IMG/VR virus record: IMGVR_UViG_3300030106_002282
Span: 1 to 59,683 of that record
DNA from: a virus
Strand: one strand, 5' to 3'
Length of the DNA stretch: 59,683 bases
In this document: one piece after another, positions 746-38,846 of the stretch
Layout: every line of letters begins with the position of its first letter
Numbering within the stretch: the first letter of the stretch is position 1
Translations under genes and position numbers: made by a program
Notes under the pieces: generated by a model
Databases searched by the model: none
Told to the model about the DNA's origin: nothing
Seen by the model: only the letters and a program-made list of their open reading frames with translations

Positions 746-978
746 AGCGATTGTCCTAAAACAGTGAGGGTTCTCTAGGTCTGCAACGAGCAGGGTACGA
801 TGAACGATACAGGTCGAGCAAAAGCCATGACACCTGTAATCCCTTTTGCGGTTTAGTAGTGACGTTTGGAATAATTACTGCGATAGGGAGACTCCCTCCA
901 GAGTCCACGAATTAACGTGCCGAAGAGAATCCTAATTATGGGGTTCAAGAAACTCTAACTAATGGAGGTTAGAAAATT
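746..978 (+). ncRNA. Structured leader of the first plus-strand gene
   Basis: A 233-base stretch without a credible gene. Several local hairpins can be read: ACAGGT (809-814) with ACCTGT (832-837), GACTC (890-894) with GAGTC (901-905), and CACG (906-909) with CGTG (916-919). It ends in the Shine-Dalgarno hairpin before the gene at 979. It probably also holds the promoter of the early plus-strand unit, but I could not pick a convincing -35/-10 pair. It does not contain the CUGANGA hammerhead core that the next leaders have. Its RNA class is unknown. Confidence 0.4.
955..972 (+). promoter_or_regulatory. Shine-Dalgarno presented in a hairpin loop
   Basis: CTAAC (955-959) pairs with GTTAG (968-972), leaving TAATGGAG in the loop; the start codon is at 979. 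Confidence 0.55.
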
Positions 979-1119
979 ATGACAAAGCAAGAAGTAGAAA
1001 ACTTAATTTCTAAAAAGAAACAAGAACGAAAAGAAATTAATGCGGAACTTATAAGACTGCAGAAAATTAAAAATGACCTTTTTCAAGAAGAATTAATCAA
1101 TTCTTACATGAAATGGTAA
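979..1119 (+). CDS. Small coiled-coil protein
   Basis: 46 aa, starting MTKQEVENLISKKKQE. It is almost entirely charged helix with heptad-like hydrophobic spacing (L, I, L, I), so a short coiled coil is likely. It is supported by a strong Shine-Dalgarno (TGGAGG at 963-968) and by its place as the first gene of the early plus-strand series. I do not recognise a family. The hammerhead-like leader of the next gene begins 3 bases after its stop codon. Confidence 0.6.
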   Translation: MTKQEVENLISKKKQERKEINAELIRLQKIKNDLFQEELINSYMKW

Positions 1120-1121
1120 TA

Positions 1122-1202
1122 GCCTACTGACGTGCTAGTGAAATTCTAGCGAAACGCATTAAATAGATTTAAGTCTAGCCTGTAAAAAGGTTGCTTCTAG
1201 GT
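1122..1202 (+). ncRNA. Hammerhead-like RNA, type I, degenerate
   Basis: Stem I GCCTA (1122-1126) pairs with TAGGT (1198-1202). The core reads CTGACGT (1127-1133), then stem II GCTAG/CTAGC (1134-1138, 1146-1150) with loop TGAAATT, then GAAAC (1151-1155). Two hairpins follow (TAGAT/GTCTA at 1164-1177; CCT/AGG at 1179-1190) and then TTC (1195-1197), the predicted cleavage triplet. The layout matches the element at 1667-1748 with different stem sequences, that is, with covariation. The essential core A9 is a T here and the predicted stem III has mismatches, so this copy may be weak or inactive. Confidence 0.4.
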
Positions 1203-1203
1203 G

Positions 1204-1221
1204 GTTGGCAATAATGCCAAC
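1204..1221 (+). other. Hairpin after the ribozyme-like element
   Basis: GTTGGCA (1204-1210) pairs with TGCCAAC (1215-1221). An equivalent 7-bp hairpin with changed base pairs follows the next element (1749-1766), so the hairpin is a conserved part of these leaders. It lacks a T-tract and is not a terminator. Confidence 0.6.
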
Positions 1222-1252: not shown

Positions 1253-1666
1253 ATGAAAATAAATTTTATAGAAATAGCAGGATATGAAAGTATTGATGCC
1301 AATATAGATTTCATTAACAATGAAATAACTCCTGTTGATTACGTGAAAAACTTTTCATGTAATGCAGTTCCTGTTGAAGGTGGCGGTCTTTGGTATTCCT
1401 ATACATTTAATAATTTGCTCGTGACTGTTATCTGTCACCCAGGTTCTATTGGTGGTCTTAGCGGTAAATGGGAAATAGGTATCAGAAATAAAGATACAGG
1501 TGAATGGTTAAATGTTCCTAATGGATATATTTCCACAAGTCAGGGAGGTGTCGAGGGTTGGAAATCTTGGAATGAAATCCAGATAATCCTTAAAAAAATT
1601 CTTGCTGACGCTATGGAAGAAATTCGTTTAGAGAGTAAAGAGCCACTTACCTTAGAAGATTTATAA
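1253..1666 (+). CDS. Hypothetical early phage protein
   Basis: 137 aa. I do not recognise a family. The N-terminal two thirds is mixed alpha/beta with a Gly-rich stretch (PVEGGGLWYSY at about residues 41-51, PGSIGGLSGKWEIGI at about 64-78) and many aromatic residues. The last 30 residues form a charged helix. It is soluble with no signal peptide. A strong Shine-Dalgarno in a hairpin loop precedes it, and hammerhead-like leaders lie on both sides, so it was probably expressed as part of the same early series as the downstream AAA+ ATPase. Confidence 0.75.
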   Translation: MKINFIEIAGYESIDANIDFINNEITPVDYVKNFSCNAVPVEGGGLWYSYTFNNLLVTVICHPGSIGGLSGKWEIGIRNKDTGEWLNVPNGYISTSQGGVEGWKSWNEIQIILKKILADAMEEIRLESKEPLTLEDL

Positions 1667-1748
1667 ATCAACTGACGAGCCTGTGAAATTCAGGCGAAAC
1701 ATTAAACTAGTATCCAGTAATGGACTAACCCTATACGGGTGTCTTGGT
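1667..1748 (+). ncRNA. Hammerhead ribozyme candidate, type I
   Basis: Stem I ATCAA (1667-1671) pairs with TTGGT (1744-1748, two wobble-tolerant positions). The core CTGACGA (1672-1678) is intact. Stem II is GCCTG/CAGGC (1679-1683, 1691-1695) with loop TGAAATT, identical to the loop in the 1122-1202 element although the stem differs. GAAAC is at 1696-1700. Stem III begins ACATT and ends before GTC (1741-1743), the predicted cleavage triplet. Inside stem III are two hairpins (TCCA/TGGA at 1713-1724; ACCC/GGGT at 1728-1740), which is unusual for this family. It sits in the leader of the AAA+ ATPase gene. Confidence 0.55.
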
Positions 1749-1766
1749 GTTAGCAATTTTGCTAAC
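1749..1766 (+). other. Hairpin after the ribozyme-like element
   Basis: GTTAGCA (1749-1755) pairs with TGCTAAC (1760-1766). It corresponds in position to the hairpin at 1204-1221 with compensating base changes. Confidence 0.6.
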
Positions 1767-1804: not shown

Positions 1805-2854
1805 ATGAAACCAAGTCAAGCGATACTATCGATGAAATCGATATTAAAGGGTTCTAATACTCCTTACCTTCAAGGTAAGCCAGGTATTGGAAAAAGTGCA
1901 ATTGTTAGGAAACTAGCCGAAGAATTTGCAGAAGATAGAGAGATTGTAAATTCAATTAATCCAACTAAAAAACAGTTTGGGTTTATTGATTTCAGATTGT
2001 CTCTTTATGAGACTGTTGATTTAGGCGGGTTGCCTTACATAGACGAAGATAACCAACAGAAGAGAGCCTTTTTAGGAAATCTTCCTGTAGGTGGCGAGGG
2101 CATATTATTCTTTGATGAATTTGCTCAGGCTCATTCGTCTGTGATGTGTGTCTGCGGACAATTACTCTATGAAAGAAAAATCGGAGAGTATGTTCTGCCT
2201 GAAGGGTGGAAGATTGTCTGTGCGGGAAACAGGGCAACTGACAGAGCAGGAGCAAATAAAATTCCTACTCAAGTTAATGACAGGTGTACGATGTTAAATG
2301 TAGATGAAAACATCAACGACTGGATTGCATGGGCAACTGAGAATGATGTAAGTCCTGACGTATTGGGATTCATTAGTTATGAACCTCAGTACCTTTGCGA
2401 CTTTGACCCAAAAATAACGACTCCACAGCCGAGTCCTCGTTCTTGGGTTCGTCTTTCTGATACATTGAAAACGAATCCGCCAAAAGAAATTTTGCAATTA
2501 GTTTGTGAAGGGGATATTGGCGAGACTGCTTCGATTGAATTTCTTACCTTTTTGTCTTTGAAAAATGACTTGCCGAATGTTCAAGACATTTGCGAAGGCA
2601 AAGACGTAGAAATGATTGACGAGGGCGGTAAATCTTATGCTCTAGTTTGTGCATTAGTTTCGATTCTTAAATCGGAAATAGATAATCCAAACGTAGCTAA
2701 TTATTTTCAAAATAGTCTTAACTATGTTGAGAAATTACCTACTCCAGAATTTGCGATTTTCTATGTTCGTTCTTTGATTGGAGCAATACCAGACTTAGCA
2801 GAAACTTCTACTTATTCTGATTTCAAAATTAGAAATCAAGATTTAGAAGTCTAG
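1805..2854 (+). CDS. MoxR-like AAA+ ATPase
   Basis: 349 aa. The Walker A motif is GKPGIGKS (residues 24-31) and the Walker B motif is ILFFDEFAQA (about residues 101-110). This fits the AAA_5/MoxR branch, whose members act as chaperone-like ATPases that load or remodel a VWA-domain partner. The partner candidate is encoded two genes downstream (3990-5339), with a DUF3150-like protein between them. This three-gene set recurs in phages and prophages, but its role there is unproven. The long leader with a hammerhead candidate and a hairpin-borne Shine-Dalgarno suggests post-transcriptional control. There is no membrane segment. Confidence 0.85.
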   Translation: MKPSQAILSMKSILKGSNTPYLQGKPGIGKSAIVRKLAEEFAEDREIVNSINPTKKQFGFIDFRLSLYETVDLGGLPYIDEDNQQKRAFLGNLPVGGEGILFFDEFAQAHSSVMCVCGQLLYERKIGEYVLPEGWKIVCAGNRATDRAGANKIPTQVNDRCTMLNVDENINDWIAWATENDVSPDVLGFISYEPQYLCDFDPKITTPQPSPRSWVRLSDTLKTNPPKEILQLVCEGDIGETASIEFLTFLSLKNDLPNVQDICEGKDVEMIDEGGKSYALVCALVSILKSEIDNPNVANYFQNSLNYVEKLPTPEFAIFYVRSLIGAIPDLAETSTYSDFKIRNQDLEV

Positions 2855-2929: not shown

Positions 2930-2986
2930 TATCTGATATTGGAATGTGTATTCCAACTGACGAGCAGGAAACTGCGAAATCAGATA
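2930..2986 (+). ncRNA. Hammerhead ribozyme, type III
   Basis: All elements of a hammerhead are present. Stem III is TATCTGAT (2930-2937) with ATCAGATA (2979-2986), 8 perfect pairs. The cleavage nucleotide is A2938 (triplet ATA). Stem I is TTGGAAT (2939-2945) with ATTCCAA (2950-2956), 7 perfect pairs with loop GTGT. The core CTGACGA is at 2957-2963. Stem II is GCAG/CTGC (2964-2967, 2972-2975) with a GAAA tetraloop, and GAA is at 2976-2978 next to A15.1 (2979). The order makes it type III, with cleavage predicted between 2938 and 2939. It lies in the leader of the gene at 3017, so cleavage would leave the downstream message with a 5' hydroxyl and a defined structured 5' end. Confidence 0.85.
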
Positions 2987-3016: not shown

Positions 3017-4003
3017 ATGGATAAAAAATTAACTAATACCTTATCGGAAAACTGTATGTTGGTACGTCTTACTGCAAGACATCCTTCAGGCATTAAGGTC
3101 GATAAGAAGTTAAGAAGCGATTTAGCGGTTGATACGAAAGTATCTGACGATAAATTGTTAGGTGTTTCTAAACATATCTTTGGTCGAAATATCAATAAAG
3201 AGTTTCGCCAAATTTTAGATAAGTTTAGAAATGACTTTTATAAACCTTTAACTTTACCCTGGGACGATTCTTCTTCCCTTGACGAAGAGGGAAAAGTTTT
3301 ATCGGAATGGCGACTTTGCCCTAACACGAATCTTGAGCGACTTCAGTATGAAGTAGACCAAGCGACTCTTGTCTGGGATAAAGAAGTTCAAGGGTTTCTC
3401 AGAACCTATCCTAAACAAATGGAAATGGCGAAGAGAAATTTGGGCGATGCTTTCAGAGAAAGTGATTACATGGATTTTGACAAATTAAGACAAAAGTTTT
3501 TGTTTCAATTTGAAATGACTCCTGTTCCTACTTTCGGAAACGATATCAGACTTAACGTCTCAGAAAAGTTAAGGCAGAGAATAGAAGCGGATGCGATTAA
3601 TCGCCAAAGTAAAAACATCAATAACGTAATGACAATTACTGTTGATGCTTTGCTAGAGCAGGTTAATCACGTTGCAACTAAACTCAAAGAGTATGACCCT
3701 GACAATAAGCAGAAAGGCGGATTCTTTAACAAGTCTAGTTTCGAGAAATTGAGACAAGCGGTTGAAGTGCTACCTTCTATTAATCAGGACGTACTAGGCA
3801 ATAATCAAAATATTGCTGACGCTCATCAAAGTCTTTGTTCTGTTCTTGCAACAATAAATTCTGTTGATTCTCTTAGAGATGAAACAGATTTAGGGAAGCA
3901 AAAACGTGGACAGGTTGCTGAAGGTCTTGAGCGGTCTGTTGATGGACTGAAAGGCAATTTGTTCGACAAAATTTATGGAGGTAAGAAAGATGAAAACTCT
4001 TGA
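3017..4003 (+). CDS. DUF3150-like protein of the MoxR/VWA module
   Basis: 328 aa, soluble and mostly helical. The N-terminus (NCMLVRLTARHPSGIKVDKK) and the following conserved-looking block resemble DUF3150 proteins, which are usually encoded between a MoxR-like ATPase and a VWA protein in phage genomes. Position supports this better than sequence recall alone. It starts 30 bases after the hammerhead ribozyme. Its end overlaps the start of the next gene by 14 bases, and the Shine-Dalgarno of that gene lies inside its final codons, so the two are translationally coupled. Biochemical function is unknown. Confidence 0.65.
   Translation: MDKKLTNTLSENCMLVRLTARHPSGIKVDKKLRSDLAVDTKVSDDKLLGVSKHIFGRNINKEFRQILDKFRNDFYKPLTLPWDDSSSLDEEGKVLSEWRLCPNTNLERLQYEVDQATLVWDKEVQGFLRTYPKQMEMAKRNLGDAFRESDYMDFDKLRQKFLFQFEMTPVPTFGNDIRLNVSEKLRQRIEADAINRQSKNINNVMTITVDALLEQVNHVATKLKEYDPDNKQKGGFFNKSSFEKLRQAVEVLPSINQDVLGNNQNIADAHQSLCSVLATINSVDSLRDETDLGKQKRGQVAEGLERSVDGLKGNLFDKIYGGKKDENS
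3973..3984 (+). promoter_or_regulatory. Shine-Dalgarno in a short hairpin, inside the upstream gene
   Basis: TTA (3973-3975) and TAA (3982-3984) flank TGGAGG. This decides the start of the next gene: the ATG at 3975 overlaps the Shine-Dalgarno itself, so 3990 is the real start. Confidence 0.45.
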
Positions 4004-5339
4004 TTCCATAATTAAGGCTAGAGCAAAATTGATGAAAGGGCATATTGGCATGGCTAGTATGCTCCTTAATCTTGACTTGGTTGAATGTGAAGAATCAAAG
4101 TGCAATACGATGGCAACAGATGGTAAAAACATTTTTTACTATCCGCCTTTCGTGGATAAATTAACTGAAGCAGAATTGCGAGGTGTACTTGTTCACGAAG
4201 CGTTGCACGTTGTTTATGAGCATCCACTAAGACGTGGTAAACGTCATCCTAAAGTATGGAATATTGCTTGTGATTACGTTATCAATGCTTACTTGTATTG
4301 GGATTTAGGTTTTGAATTGCCTTTTGGCGGTTTACTTGACCATAAATACAAGGGTTGGTCTGCGGAAAAGGTCTATCAACATTTAATTAAAAATGAAAAT
4401 GACCTGCAAGAAGCAATTGAGCAAGTCAAACAGCAGAATCAAGATGCGGACATGGAGGACGATTCGCAAGATTCTGAAATACCAGACACTAGTGAAGAAA
4501 ATATTTCTGAAGAAGCTGACGAAGATAGCGAAGCCGATGGCGGAGAATCTGAGTCAATTGATTTAGATGCTATTCCTTCAACTATTGGCGAGGTATTAGA
4601 TGCAACTGACGATGAAGGAAAGCCTTTGAGTGATGCTGAGATTCAAGAAATTTCAACTGAGATTCAAAGAGCAGTAGCCTTATCTGACAAGTTAGAAATA
4701 GCTGTTGGAAGCGGTACTAATTCATCTTGCGGTGGCAGAATGGAAGAATTGAAAGAAACTTCAATTGACTGGAAAGAGCAATTGAATGACCTCTTACGTT
4801 CTTCTTTTGCTAACGATTATTCGTGGTCGAGACTGAATAAAAGGTTTGCTTGGCAGGGTTTAAATTTGCCGAGTAAAACTAGGTCTCCGCAAGGTGGCGA
4901 ATTAGCGGTTGCAATTGATACTTCAGGTTCTGTATCTCAATACGAATTGAATAAATTTGCTACTGAGATACAAGCTATGGCGGAGGACTGCGGTCTTGAA
5001 AAAATCAGAGTTTGCTACTGTGATACAACTGTTCGTAAAAATGAGCAGGGGGAATGGTGGGATTACTTTGATTTATCTTCTGGCGATGAATTGGAATTAG
5101 CAGTTCGTGGCGGTGGCGGTACAGAGTTTGACCCTGTATTTAATCTGCTGAATGACTACACTGATGATGCCGAAGATATTCAGGCGATGGTCTATTTTAC
5201 AGATGGTTGGGGAGACGTTTCTGAAGACGTTGAACCTGATGTTCCTGTGTTTTGGTGTTGTACTGAAAAAAGCAGTTATTCGGAACGTCTTGCCTTTGGC
5301 GAGGTGGTCTATGTAGATACTGCTAGATTCTACGACTAA
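3990..5339 (+). CDS. Metallopeptidase-like and VWA domain protein
   Basis: 449 aa from the ATG at 3990. The N-terminal half carries VHEALHVVYEH with a zinc-type HExxH (HEALH, about residues 69-73), as in DUF2201/VWA-like putative metallopeptidases. A very acidic linker follows (about residues 150-220). The C-terminal third is a von Willebrand A-like domain with a MIDAS motif (DTSGSVS, near residue 310) and YFTDGWGD near the end. With the MoxR-like ATPase it forms a recognisable ATPase/VWA pair. In known cases the ATPase remodels a target bound by the VWA protein; the target here is unknown. Confidence 0.8.
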   Translation: MKTLDSIIKARAKLMKGHIGMASMLLNLDLVECEESKCNTMATDGKNIFYYPPFVDKLTEAELRGVLVHEALHVVYEHPLRRGKRHPKVWNIACDYVINAYLYWDLGFELPFGGLLDHKYKGWSAEKVYQHLIKNENDLQEAIEQVKQQNQDADMEDDSQDSEIPDTSEENISEEADEDSEADGGESESIDLDAIPSTIGEVLDATDDEGKPLSDAEIQEISTEIQRAVALSDKLEIAVGSGTNSSCGGRMEELKETSIDWKEQLNDLLRSSFANDYSWSRLNKRFAWQGLNLPSKTRSPQGGELAVAIDTSGSVSQYELNKFATEIQAMAEDCGLEKIRVCYCDTTVRKNEQGEWWDYFDLSSGDELELAVRGGGGTEFDPVFNLLNDYTDDAEDIQAMVYFTDGWGDVSEDVEPDVPVFWCCTEKSSYSERLAFGEVVYVDTARFYD

Positions 5340-5350
5340 AAACTTTCTAT

Positions 5351-5400
5351 TAGCGAGTGATATTTGAGGGGTACTCAGATATCACTTGCTATTAGTTTTG
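5351..5400 (+). terminator. Terminator-like hairpin after the VWA gene
   Basis: Bases 5351-5368 pair with 5374-5391 over 18 consecutive positions (two G-T pairs), with loop GGGTA, followed by TTAGTTTTG. The stem is long and AT-rich and the T-tract is weak, so it may be a partial terminator or a processing/stability structure rather than a full stop. Confidence 0.55.
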
Positions 5401-5434: not shown

Positions 5435-5521
5435 AAACTGATAGCAAAATGTGTGTTTTGCCTGATGAACGCGAAAGCGTACCCTTCTAGGAGGGTGGCT
5501 CAAAAGAGCCGAAATCAGTTT
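5435..5521 (+). ncRNA. Hammerhead ribozyme with expanded stem II region
   Basis: Stem III AAACTGAT (5435-5442) pairs perfectly with ATCAGTTT (5514-5521). A5443 is the predicted cleavage nucleotide. Stem I is GCAAAA (5444-5449) with TTTTGC (5456-5461). The core CTGATGA is at 5462-5468 and GAA at 5511-5513. Between the two core strands are three hairpins instead of one: ACGC/GCGT (5469-5480, GAAA loop), ACCCT/AGGGT (5481-5496) and GGCTC/GAGCC (5497-5510, AAAA loop). The order is the same type III order as at 2930-2986. Whether the core tolerates this insertion is the main uncertainty. Confidence 0.6.
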
Positions 5522-5532
5522 AACTAACTTTT

Positions 5533-5550
5533 ATAAGATGGAGGTCTTAT
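5533..5550 (+). promoter_or_regulatory. Shine-Dalgarno presented in a hairpin loop
   Basis: ATAAGA (5533-5538) pairs with TCTTAT (5545-5550), loop TGGAGG. The 3' strand runs into the ATG at 5549. Confidence 0.65.
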
Positions 5551-5821
5551 GAATGATTTAAATATGAAGGTATTCTATAAAAATGTTTATGGTAATGACC
5601 TTTGCTATCCTTTTTGCAACACTGCAAAGAAATTCGCAAAGTTAATTGACCAAAAAACTTTTAATAAATACCACTTGGAAACAATAAAAACTTTGAAATA
5701 TAAAATTGATATTGTTGCTTATAATCCTAAACAAAAAGATGCTTGGGACACTTCTGCTAAATGGATTAAAGAGGATATGAAAGAAAATCCTCAGAGATAC
5801 CAAAACAAGGAGGAGTTATGA
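5549..5821 (+). CDS. Hypothetical early protein
   Basis: 90 aa, basic and Lys-rich, no membrane segment. I do not recognise a family. Its N-terminal part has the pattern FYKNVYGNDLCYPFCNTAKK. It starts a short co-directional unit whose genes overlap by 4 bases (5818, 6015, 6722, 6850), which is typical of coupled phage early genes. It is preceded by the expanded hammerhead and a 6-bp Shine-Dalgarno hairpin. Confidence 0.75.
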   Translation: MNDLNMKVFYKNVYGNDLCYPFCNTAKKFAKLIDQKTFNKYHLETIKTLKYKIDIVAYNPKQKDAWDTSAKWIKEDMKENPQRYQNKEEL

Positions 5822-36774: not shown

Positions 36775-37087
36775 TTTTAGTTCCTTTATTTACTCTAGGT
36801 TCAATTAAACCTGGTTTAGCAAAAGCAAGTTTGCTTAAATCATGCCTTTTAAATACGTCTAAATAGCGTTGCATTTCTGCTTCATACTGTTGAGTTTTAG
36901 ATTGTAATTCTAATAACCCTTCAGTTTGCAATTTAAAATCATTTTGCAAGCTTTCTATAGCTGCTTTTTGTTCTTTATCTCGCAGTTCAAAAGCTTGATT
37001 TATTTCAGCTAATCTAGAATTTTGCCAATACAAAAAACTACAAGCTAGTAACAATATCCCAACTACGCCTAATAATATTTTACTCAT
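36692..37087 (-). CDS. Inner-membrane spanin, Rz-like
   Basis: 131 aa. One N-terminal membrane segment (ILLGVVGILLLACSFLYW, residues 4-21) and then a long periplasmic coiled coil (about 25-85). The part FKRHDLSKLAFAKPGLIE followed by an ENIEEISR helix is typical of the i-spanins of marine and T4-like phages. It overlaps both the o-spanin gene and, by 8 bases, the end of the cyclase gene upstream, so the curli/cyclase module is transcriptionally joined to lysis. Confidence 0.75.
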   Translation of the reverse strand: MSKILLGVVGILLLACSFLYWQNSRLAEINQAFELRDKEQKAAIESLQNDFKLQTEGLLELQSKTQQYEAEMQRYLDVFKRHDLSKLAFAKPGLIEPRVNKGTKNVFENIEEISRNIDLLDDGLQLQSNTD

Positions 37088-38846
37088 ATGTATAAATTTT
37101 TAATGGACTAATTTTACCTTTGACTAGTATAGGCTCTAAAGATTTTAAATGATAACCACATAAACTTTCTGTTGATTCACTAATTAGTAAATCTACTTTT
37201 CTTTCTTTAGTAGCACTTTCTAATCGTGCTGCAACATTTACTGCATCTCCTATAGCTGTGTAATCAAATCTAGTAGCAGAACCCATATTTCCTATTGCTG
37301 CAGGACCAGTATTGATTCCTATACCTATAGCTATTTCTGGTAATCTTTCTTCTTGTAATTCAACAGCTAAATCATTTATATTTTTAATTATTTCTAAAGC
37401 ACAATCTACTGCTGCTTTTGCGTGGTCTTGCAAATCTAAAGGTGCATTAAATATTGCCATCATTGCATCGCCTATATATTTATCTACCATACCGCCATAA
37501 TTTTGTACTGCTATTTGTTGAGCAGTAAGAACTTTATTCATAATATAAGTAACATCTTCAGGTTTTAATTTTTCTGACATAGCAGTAAAACCTCTAACAT
37601 CAGTAAATAAAAAAGTAGCTGTTTTAGTTTCGCCACCTAATTTTAATAACTCAGGATTGTCTTGTAAGCGTTTTACCTGTTTAGGGTCTAAATAATGTTC
37701 AAATTGTTTTTTTATCTGTAAACGTAATTTAAATTGTTCTCTAAATCTTAAATAAAATGCAATAGTTGCTACTACAAACTGTGATATTAAAGTCCATGTG
37801 ACATCAAGTAATATACCTTTTTGTATTAAATAATATCCAATACCTGCTGTTAGAAAAAATAATACACTAGTGAATAATATTCCAGCAGTTATTCCAAAAT
37901 AAAATAAAGCAAACCAAATAGCAGTTATTGATGTTATTAATATTAATATTTCTGCAATCCAACTCCAATCAGGTATATAAGGACTGTCTTGTATTAACAA
38001 AGATTCTGATAACGCTGCTTGTATTTTATGTGGTTCTAATAAACCTATTGGAGTAGCTACTTGTGGCATTACACCATTTGCCGTAACTCCAACAAAAACA
38101 AATTTACCAAATACTTCCATATTGTCTAAATCTGTTTCTGGAGTATTTACCCAACTAATCCATTTTCTACCTAACGTATCTGTTTTTACTGGCGGTATAC
38201 CTTGTACTGTTATTTCTTCTATACCTGCTGTAGATGTTTTTATTATGTAAGTTTTACTATTAGTTAAAGTTTTTAAAACTTCTGTGCCAAAAGCACTTAC
38301 AAAACCATCAGGTGTTTCTAACAATAAAGGTATTCTTCTAACTAGATTATCTATGTCTACAGGTGCTGTTGCTATGCCTTGTGTTGCAGATTTTTTTAAG
38401 ACTTCAATATTTTCTACAACACCTTGAGTTTTTATTCCATTAGGTTTGCCTTCTCCTAAATAAACTGTACCTGAAGTTTTTGGATAATTACCACTAACAT
38501 TTTCAAACATAGCTAAAATAGAGGGAGACAAAGCTAAAGCTGATGCAAATGTTTCATCACCTTTAAATCTGTCTTTTTCACTAAATGCAATAACCCAACC
38601 AACACCTAATGCACCTTTATTTAATAACTCAACATGAATATCTGCATAATCTTGTCGGGGAAAAGGAAAACCGCCTCTATCAGTAACATTTTTTTCGGTA
38701 ATATTTAAAATAACAAAATTACCTGAAGGTTCTTGTTTTTTTATTAAAGCATCAAAAGTTTTTAATTTTAGAATTTCTATAAAACTAACATTAAAAACAA
38801 ATGGCAAAAGTAAAATTAATATTAATGGTAAAATTATTTTTTTCAT
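37080..38846 (-). CDS. CHASE2-domain class III adenylate cyclase
   Basis: 588 aa membrane signalling enzyme. An N-terminal membrane segment (about residues 3-22) is followed by a periplasmic CHASE2 sensor domain (about 25-290, with FPFPRQDYADIHVELL and ISWVNTPETD), then three membrane segments (about 296-366) and a cytoplasmic cyclase domain (about 405-585). Catalytic features are complete: FTDVRGF (D for metal, near 416), DKYIGDAMMAIF (K for adenine, second metal D, near 455), FDYTAIGDAVNVAARLE (D for adenine, N and R for transition state, near 532). Lys/Asp at the base-selecting positions predicts ATP to cAMP. It lies directly downstream of the FecR gene. Confidence 0.9.
   Translation of the reverse strand: MKKIILPLILILLLPFVFNVSFIEILKLKTFDALIKKQEPSGNFVILNITEKNVTDRGGFPFPRQDYADIHVELLNKGALGVGWVIAFSEKDRFKGDETFASALALSPSILAMFENVSGNYPKTSGTVYLGEGKPNGIKTQGVVENIEVLKKSATQGIATAPVDIDNLVRRIPLLLETPDGFVSAFGTEVLKTLTNSKTYIIKTSTAGIEEITVQGIPPVKTDTLGRKWISWVNTPETDLDNMEVFGKFVFVGVTANGVMPQVATPIGLLEPHKIQAALSESLLIQDSPYIPDWSWIAEILILITSITAIWFALFYFGITAGILFTSVLFFLTAGIGYYLIQKGILLDVTWTLISQFVVATIAFYLRFREQFKLRLQIKKQFEHYLDPKQVKRLQDNPELLKLGGETKTATFLFTDVRGFTAMSEKLKPEDVTYIMNKVLTAQQIAVQNYGGMVDKYIGDAMMAIFNAPLDLQDHAKAAVDCALEIIKNINDLAVELQEERLPEIAIGIGINTGPAAIGNMGSATRFDYTAIGDAVNVAARLESATKERKVDLLISESTESLCGYHLKSLEPILVKGKISPLKIYTYE
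37863..37884 (+). repeat. Dispersed palindromic motif
   Basis: ACACTAGTGAATAATATT inside the membrane segment region of the cyclase gene; the first core base is changed (A for T). Confidence 0.65.

Follow-up and report, generated by a model that had tools for sequence, protein, structure and literature searches.

Hammerheads are among the best-studied catalytic RNAs, and in them a metal ion bridges the phosphate of A9 and N7 of G10.1. In the alignments of known hammerheads, as described in the available text of Eckert et al. (2023, PMC10085705), no insertion of more than 1-2 nt occurs between A9 and stem II, and the permutation logic published there presumes that A9 and stem II are uninterrupted. 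The accessible sections of Perreault et al. (2011, PMC3088659) place pair 10.1-11.1 as the most conserved of the hammerhead consensus after 15.1-16.1 and describe both small core insertions (such as A6a and U13a) and tandem hammerheads in polycistronic RNAs. The same sections report that, for the HHphage element of haloviruses HF1 and HF2, a transcript 5' end was mapped near the cleavage site.

The DNA analysed here (the window) is an IMG/VR virus record of 59,683 bases that carries tailed-phage genes (terminase large subunit, portal and primase/helicase). Its first 25 kb had no megablast match among phage records. The VWA protein encoded upstream of the element described below matched 504 records, all with less than 60% identity, of which the best-ranked was Acinetobacter phage At2 (28.7%), and a 106-base query with the element itself matched only 27 bases of one known phage record (E-value: 4). 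A 328-aa protein with no Pfam or PHROG family is encoded before the VWA gene; the junction before this 328-aa gene is called site A and the junction after the VWA gene site B.

The element is located on the coding strand between the DUF2201/VWA-like gene and a 90-aa gene (Table 1). It has a type III hammerhead layout, in the order stem III, A5443, stem I, CUGAUGA, three abutting hairpins and GAAA, with the sequence AAACUGAU-A-GCAAAAUGUGUGUUUUGC-CUGAUGA-ACGCGAAAGCGU-ACCCUUCUAGGAGGGU-GGCUCAAAAGAGCC-GAA-AUCAGUUU, where hairpins 1-3 are ACGCGAAAGCGU, ACCCUUCUAGGAGGGU and GGCUCAAAAGAGCC, respectively. The original prediction had identified stems III and I and both core strands at bp 5435-5521, and both sequence and coordinates were found to be exact: the minimum free energy structure is the described structure (-34.1 kcal/mol, z -5.38), and none of 200 shuffles equalled it.

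Table 1. Positions of the hammerhead element, its parts and neighbouring features in the window.
Feature	Position (bp)	Strand	Basis or remark
Hammerhead-like element, core CCGAAGA	900..956	+	Core is CUGAUGA or CUGAAGA in relatives, whose stem II is almost the same
Hammerhead-like element, type I layout, core CUGACGU at 1127	1110..1215	+	Weak; folding does not favour it
Hammerhead-like element upstream of the ATPase gene, type I layout, core CUGACGA at 1672	1655..1765	+	Layout is the authors' reading of the sequence
AAA ATPase gene	1805-2854		Precedes the 328-aa gene
Ordinary type III hammerhead, site A, core CUGACGA at 2957-2963	2933..2984	+	Fold; covariance model
Upstream gene, DUF2201 metallopeptidase/VWA-like protein	3975..5339 (alternative start 3990)	+	Pfam
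Stem III, 5' strand AAACUGAU	5435..5442	+	Predicted pairing with 5514-5521
Predicted cleavage-site nucleotide H17 = A (NUH = AUA)	5443	+	Position by analogy to hammerheads
Stem I hairpin, GCAAAAU-GUGU-GUUUUGC	5444..5461 (5444-5450/5455-5461)	+	Fold; covariation among relatives
Core strand CUGAUGA (C3 to A9)	5462..5468	+	Sequence
Inserted hairpin 1, ACGC-GAAA-GCGU	5469..5480	+	Fold; compensatory change in relative L001
Inserted hairpin 2, ACCCUU-CUAG-GAGGGU	5481..5496	+	Fold; hairpin 2 of six relatives covaries (7/8 pairs)
Stem II (hairpin 3), GGCUC-AAAA-GAGCC, closing pair G10.1-C11.1	5497..5510	+	Identical hairpin is the only stem II of unexpanded L005
Core strand GAA (5511-5513) plus A15.1	5511..5514	+	Sequence
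Stem III, 3' strand AUCAGUUU	5514..5521	+	Fold
Ribosome-binding site GGAGG of the downstream gene	5540..5544	+	Sequence
Downstream gene, 90 aa, no Pfam family	5549..5821	+	ORF; family search

With type III hammerheads (RF00008; type SCG of Eckert et al. 2023), the element shares the order of its parts, the CUGANGA and GAAA strands, the U16.1-A15.1 pair, an NUH site, stems I, II and III and an intergenic RNA position. Stem III is open at its ends, stems I and II are closed, position 17 is an H and the base of stem II is a G10.1-C11.1 pair. It differs from them in that stem II does not directly follow CUGANGA: A9 of the core is separated from pair 10.1-11.1 by hairpins 1 and 2 (28 nt in the window and up to 40 nt in relatives), and the predicted fold has five helices rather than three and a five-way instead of a three-way junction. 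As stem II is not next to CUGANGA and the junction is not three-way, the element is assigned to a new hammerhead variant rather than to the class as currently modelled; judging from its sequence, it is a predicted ribozyme that should work like a type III hammerhead. No match to the Rfam hammerhead models (RF00008) was obtained for it at the gathering score or at E-values of 1 and 10, which is weak evidence because the ordinary hammerhead at 2957 was missed by the Rfam models too. The only hammerhead matches in the Rfam scans were below threshold and elsewhere (bp 1652-1705 of the window and bp 1631-1692 of L041, where L-numbers are labels of viral loci related to the window).

Other described systems share some of these features. 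The core variants of Perreault et al. (2011, PMC3088659) are also natural elements with a deviating core, and phages supply some of them; in the available text, however, their insertions are of 1-2 nt and no hairpin insertion is named at A9/10.1. The pseudoknot-containing hammerhead (PMC11300833), as far as its accessible description goes, is likewise natural and has extra structure around stems I and II; that structure is a pseudoknot, whereas here there are two separate hairpins and no pseudoknot is predicted. Like the window element, HHphage of HF1 and HF2 closely precedes a start codon and belongs to a polycistronic transcript of a phage, but the available account of it describes no hairpin module. 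Engineered aptazymes combine a hammerhead with an added RNA domain as well, although in the accounts available that domain is placed in stem II or III and not in the core backbone. Within the titles and opening lines of abstracts of the open-licence literature, we found no description of a hairpin or extra stem in a hammerhead core and, for hammerheads of phages or marine viruses, none of such an insert.

The three hairpins were present as originally predicted, but stem II has not been replaced: it is represented by hairpin 3, ahead of which hairpins 1 and 2 have been inserted. This assignment follows from L005, a locus with 91.6% nucleotide identity to the window in the VWA gene, which at the same junction has CUGAUGA-U-GGCUCAAAAGAGCC-GAA. 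Because L005 holds the identical hairpin as its sole stem II after one U, hairpin 3 corresponds to stem II, and hairpins 1 and 2 stand where L005 has that U, between A9 and G10.1. Hairpin 1 adjoins A9 without a gap and resembles the 4-bp, GAAA-capped stem II of the ordinary element at 2957, as would be expected if hairpin 1 were the working stem II and the insertion consisted of hairpins 2 and 3, placed on its other side between 11.1 and G12. We consider this arrangement improbable for two reasons. First, it is hairpin 3 and not hairpin 1 that is the only stem II in orthologous unexpanded elements (identical in L005; also L006/L013 and L017/L019). Second, the closing pair of hairpin 3 is G-C in all 14 distinct inserts, while that of hairpin 1 is C-G or A-U in all 14 and never G-C.

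A search for the same arrangement in other phages, as the original prediction had proposed, recovered 17 distinct whole elements with 14 distinct inserts from 25 viral records including the window (a hand count of contig names). Scanner hits with an X of 85-101 nt (type I elements, or hits that extended beyond the true GAAA as far as a later GAAA) and an X of 43 nt in L044, L052 and L057 (a single long stem II) were dropped before these counts. The minimum free energy fold contains every expected pair in 12 of the 17 whole elements and 97% of expected pairs in the other five, and there are zero unpaired bases between the three hairpins in any of the 14 inserts plus stem II. In hairpin 1, a stem of 3-4 bp is capped by a GNRA loop (GAAA in 12 of the distinct inserts, GAGA in one and GCAA in one). 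Of its four pairs, three occur in 2-4 pair types each; CGC/GCG in the window, for instance, is replaced by CGU/ACG in L001 (ACGU-GAAA-ACGU). Hairpin 2 has 6-11 bp, and its length and loop vary between subgroups. In one subgroup (L041/L044/L052/L057/L151/L154), the hairpin 2 loop is UUCAUUUA throughout and the stem below it differs. As an identical eight-base loop is found on stem II of other site A hammerheads (L233 to L245), hairpin 2 may be derived from a stem II of this type.

A MAFFT alignment of all 17 elements (A2) misaligned hairpin 1, so pair counts were taken from a six-sequence alignment (A3) and from base-anchored pairs. In A3, pairing holds in 99.4% of cells, compared with 83.1% in shuffles, and both partners change at 15 of the 28 pairs, compared with 7.6; neither value was reached by any of 500 shuffles. 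These two-sided changes involve 7/8 pairs of hairpin 2, 3/5 of stem II and 5/7 of stem I, while hairpin 1 and stem III are invariant within the set. A covariance model built from the same six relatives, with the window excluded, scored the window element at 61.8 bits (E-value: 1.2e-13). The core strands CUGANGA and GAAA, whose absence from relatives would have counted against the original prediction, are intact in 17/17 distinct elements, a conservation that is partly built in because the scanner required the core. BLAST searches of the fetched loci with the insert modules alone, for which no core was required, found no copy within a broken core. A single RNA fold is weak evidence when taken alone, and a chance fold or an assembly artefact might be suspected on that account. 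We give this explanation next to no weight: it is already refuted by the recurrence in 25 viral records and 17 distinct elements, the covariation, the independent model match and the rarity of the arrangement in dinucleotide shuffles of the 14 distinct inserts plus stem II, of which 5 of 7000 form three abutting hairpins. The suggestion of an architectural variant is thus borne out, as the plan recurs in relatives with compensatory changes and departs from what is printed for known alignments (PMC10085705). A natural set of predicted ribozymes breaks the rule of an uninterruptible A9/stem II core.

Viral loci numbered 62 in the search with the VWA protein and 80 in an alignment-based scan, with many contigs in common. 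Among records reaching these sites, type III hammerheads were found at site A in 78/80 and at site B in 64/65, those missing being L004, the remote homologue L062 and L238. In L004 a hammerhead is present (bp 4965-5015) with an extra core base, CUGAAUGA, that perhaps resembles the A6a insertion of Perreault et al. (2011). The first hammerhead scan of 63 sequences gave 151 hits compared with 21 in the reversed sequences, and with stricter stems 139/139 hits were on the coding strand. The presence of hammerheads at almost all of the gene junctions examined in this operon is relevant to the question of why phages have them.

The insert itself occurs at three junctions of the operon: site A, site B and before the ATPase gene (L151, L180). 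On a VWA tree (76 rows, quick method), the expanded state requires a minimum of 6 changes at site A (expanded in 11 of 79 states) and of 7 at site B (14/71, one state set by hand), counts in which gain and loss look alike and which recombination would inflate. The insert is present or absent between viruses that are more than 96% identical in the neighbouring gene. At site B, L016 is expanded and L210 is not (96.7% identity in the VWA gene), as is the case for L019 and L017 (97.9%), and at site A, L020 has a 40-nt insert and L019 has none (98.2%). Such near-identical relatives without the insert provide natural pairs that make the question directly testable. Related viruses appear to have gained, lost or swapped the insert several times, in a direction that the tree does not polarise. 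In L017, the site-B hammerhead is followed first by an extra gene with its own hammerhead after it and then by a gene similar to the neighbour of the site-B hammerhead in L019, as if gene plus hammerhead behaved like a cassette.

The patchy distribution across near-identical viruses and the occurrence at three junctions would also be expected if the two-hairpin insert were a mobile DNA element (REP- or MITE-like) that lands in hammerheads by happenstance. This is very unlikely: the insertion point in the ribozyme is always the same, the inserted sequences differ by compensatory changes, and recombination between viruses could account for the patchiness without a mobile element. Furthermore, no copy of useful length was found outside hammerheads in the fetched loci, where BLAST with the module gave 23 matches of at least 15 bases outside known elements, 12 of which represent one contig (L013/L075/L208) with the truncated end of a site-B hammerhead, the other 11 being short and weak. 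In the genome collection (80 loci with distant VWA relatives), a relaxed scan gave 7 hits in 6 loci, none with the three-hairpin form. Pattern scans for other lineages matched 19, at least 120, 8, 18 and 20 stretches; the three-hairpin elements among the matches listed were all within this operon group, and the other printed matches were rejected as look-alikes without a hammerhead. In L067, L069, L072 and L076, a ribosome-binding site is preceded by CUGAUGA with a flanking stem and GNRA hairpin, but the GAAA strand is absent.

GGAG or GAGG is found within 60 nt downstream in 105/105 distinct hammerheads, and GGAGG lies 12-24 nt (median 17) past stem III in 101/105. We consider it probable that the window element is a type III hammerhead with a two-hairpin accessory module between A9 and stem II that would cut polycistronic mRNA between genes of a phage operon. 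This reading is built on the sequence, the fold, the covariation, recurrence at homologous junctions, the intact core, the insertion point and the narrow spacing to the ribosome-binding site; cleavage, the five-way geometry and an effect on expression are predicted from them. By analogy to hammerheads, the scissile position would be between bp 5443 and 5444. The polycistronic mRNA would be cut after A5443, just upstream of the ribosome-binding site, and the 90-aa gene would thereby receive a short structured 5'-OH leader containing stem I, the two extra hairpins and stem II, followed by the ribosome-binding site. On the simplest reading, each hammerhead would give its downstream gene its own structured leader, and cutting of multigene phage mRNA directly upstream of the ribosome-binding site is the most likely function on sequence grounds.

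The insert lies exactly at the A9/G10.1 metal site, which would surprise specialists. Because this is the metal-bridging backbone position, catalysis could be impaired. It is conceivable, if unlikely, that the insert, by interrupting the core, abolished catalysis and that the structure was kept for another role, such as stabilising the 5' leader; the A6a core insertion lowers activity according to the available text of Perreault et al. (2011, PMC3088659). Decay would be expected of a dead core, however, and here the core is intact in 17/17 whole elements and stems I and II show compensatory changes, an argument that is weakened by the selection of elements on an intact core.

If, as we favour, the expanded element is a cleaving hammerhead, we think that the insert would tune folding, cleavage or leader stability rather than sense a ligand. 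Conservation of the GNRA loop of hairpin 1 and, in one subgroup, of the UUCAUUUA loop would agree with either a tertiary contact or a binding site, but hairpin 2 differs among subgroups in both length and loop. Loop I resembles UGUG in most elements and loop II is AAAA in 9/14, sequences that are compatible with a tertiary contact. The sensor or protein-binding role offered as an example in the original prediction is possible but unsupported. It is similarly doubtful that the module is an exchangeable control cassette at A9/10.1, in which a protein, ion or metabolite on hairpin 1 or 2 would set cleavage at chosen junctions and which viruses would swap by recombination; if true, this would amount to a hammerhead switch of natural origin and would open a new route into ribozyme engineering.

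A common translational switch, with an upstream anti-Shine-Dalgarno sequence paired to the ribosome-binding site, was rejected, as it applies to L031, L023 and some others only. For the 105 distinct hammerheads, the mean duplex energy was -9.21 for own pairs and -9.06 for swapped pairs, and concealment of the ribosome-binding site in the uncut RNA is not supported as a shared mechanism. In L031 (bp 571-657) and L023 (bp 2621-2708), an upstream AGUCCUCC can pair across the hammerhead with the ribosome-binding site, and cutting could free the ribosome-binding site from it.

The ribozyme near 2930 with which the window element had originally been compared proved to be real; its core, CUGACGA, is at 2957, its z is -3.34, and 1 of 200 shuffles equalled it. 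The element at bp 900-956 has two extra A before GAA, and a clearer type I element than those in the window is found near bp 1918 of L016. Long near-perfect hairpins are located upstream of the hammerheads at bp 5347-5397 (site B) and 2869-2925 (site A), and relatives carry an inverted repeat upstream of site A; the two window hairpins are possible RNase III sites or operators. Further along the window, bp 37083-38846 (- strand) encode a CHASE2 domain plus an adenylate/guanylate cyclase catalytic domain, an unusual signalling enzyme for a phage. Palindromes near TTCACYAGTGAA occur at bp 554, 2893, 7119, 7549, 8419, 10044, 16353, 18217 and others, with 34 strand-matches (at most 2 mismatches) compared with 13 expected, a number found in 0 of 100 shuffles. 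Several of these palindromes are seemingly intergenic and are perhaps operators.
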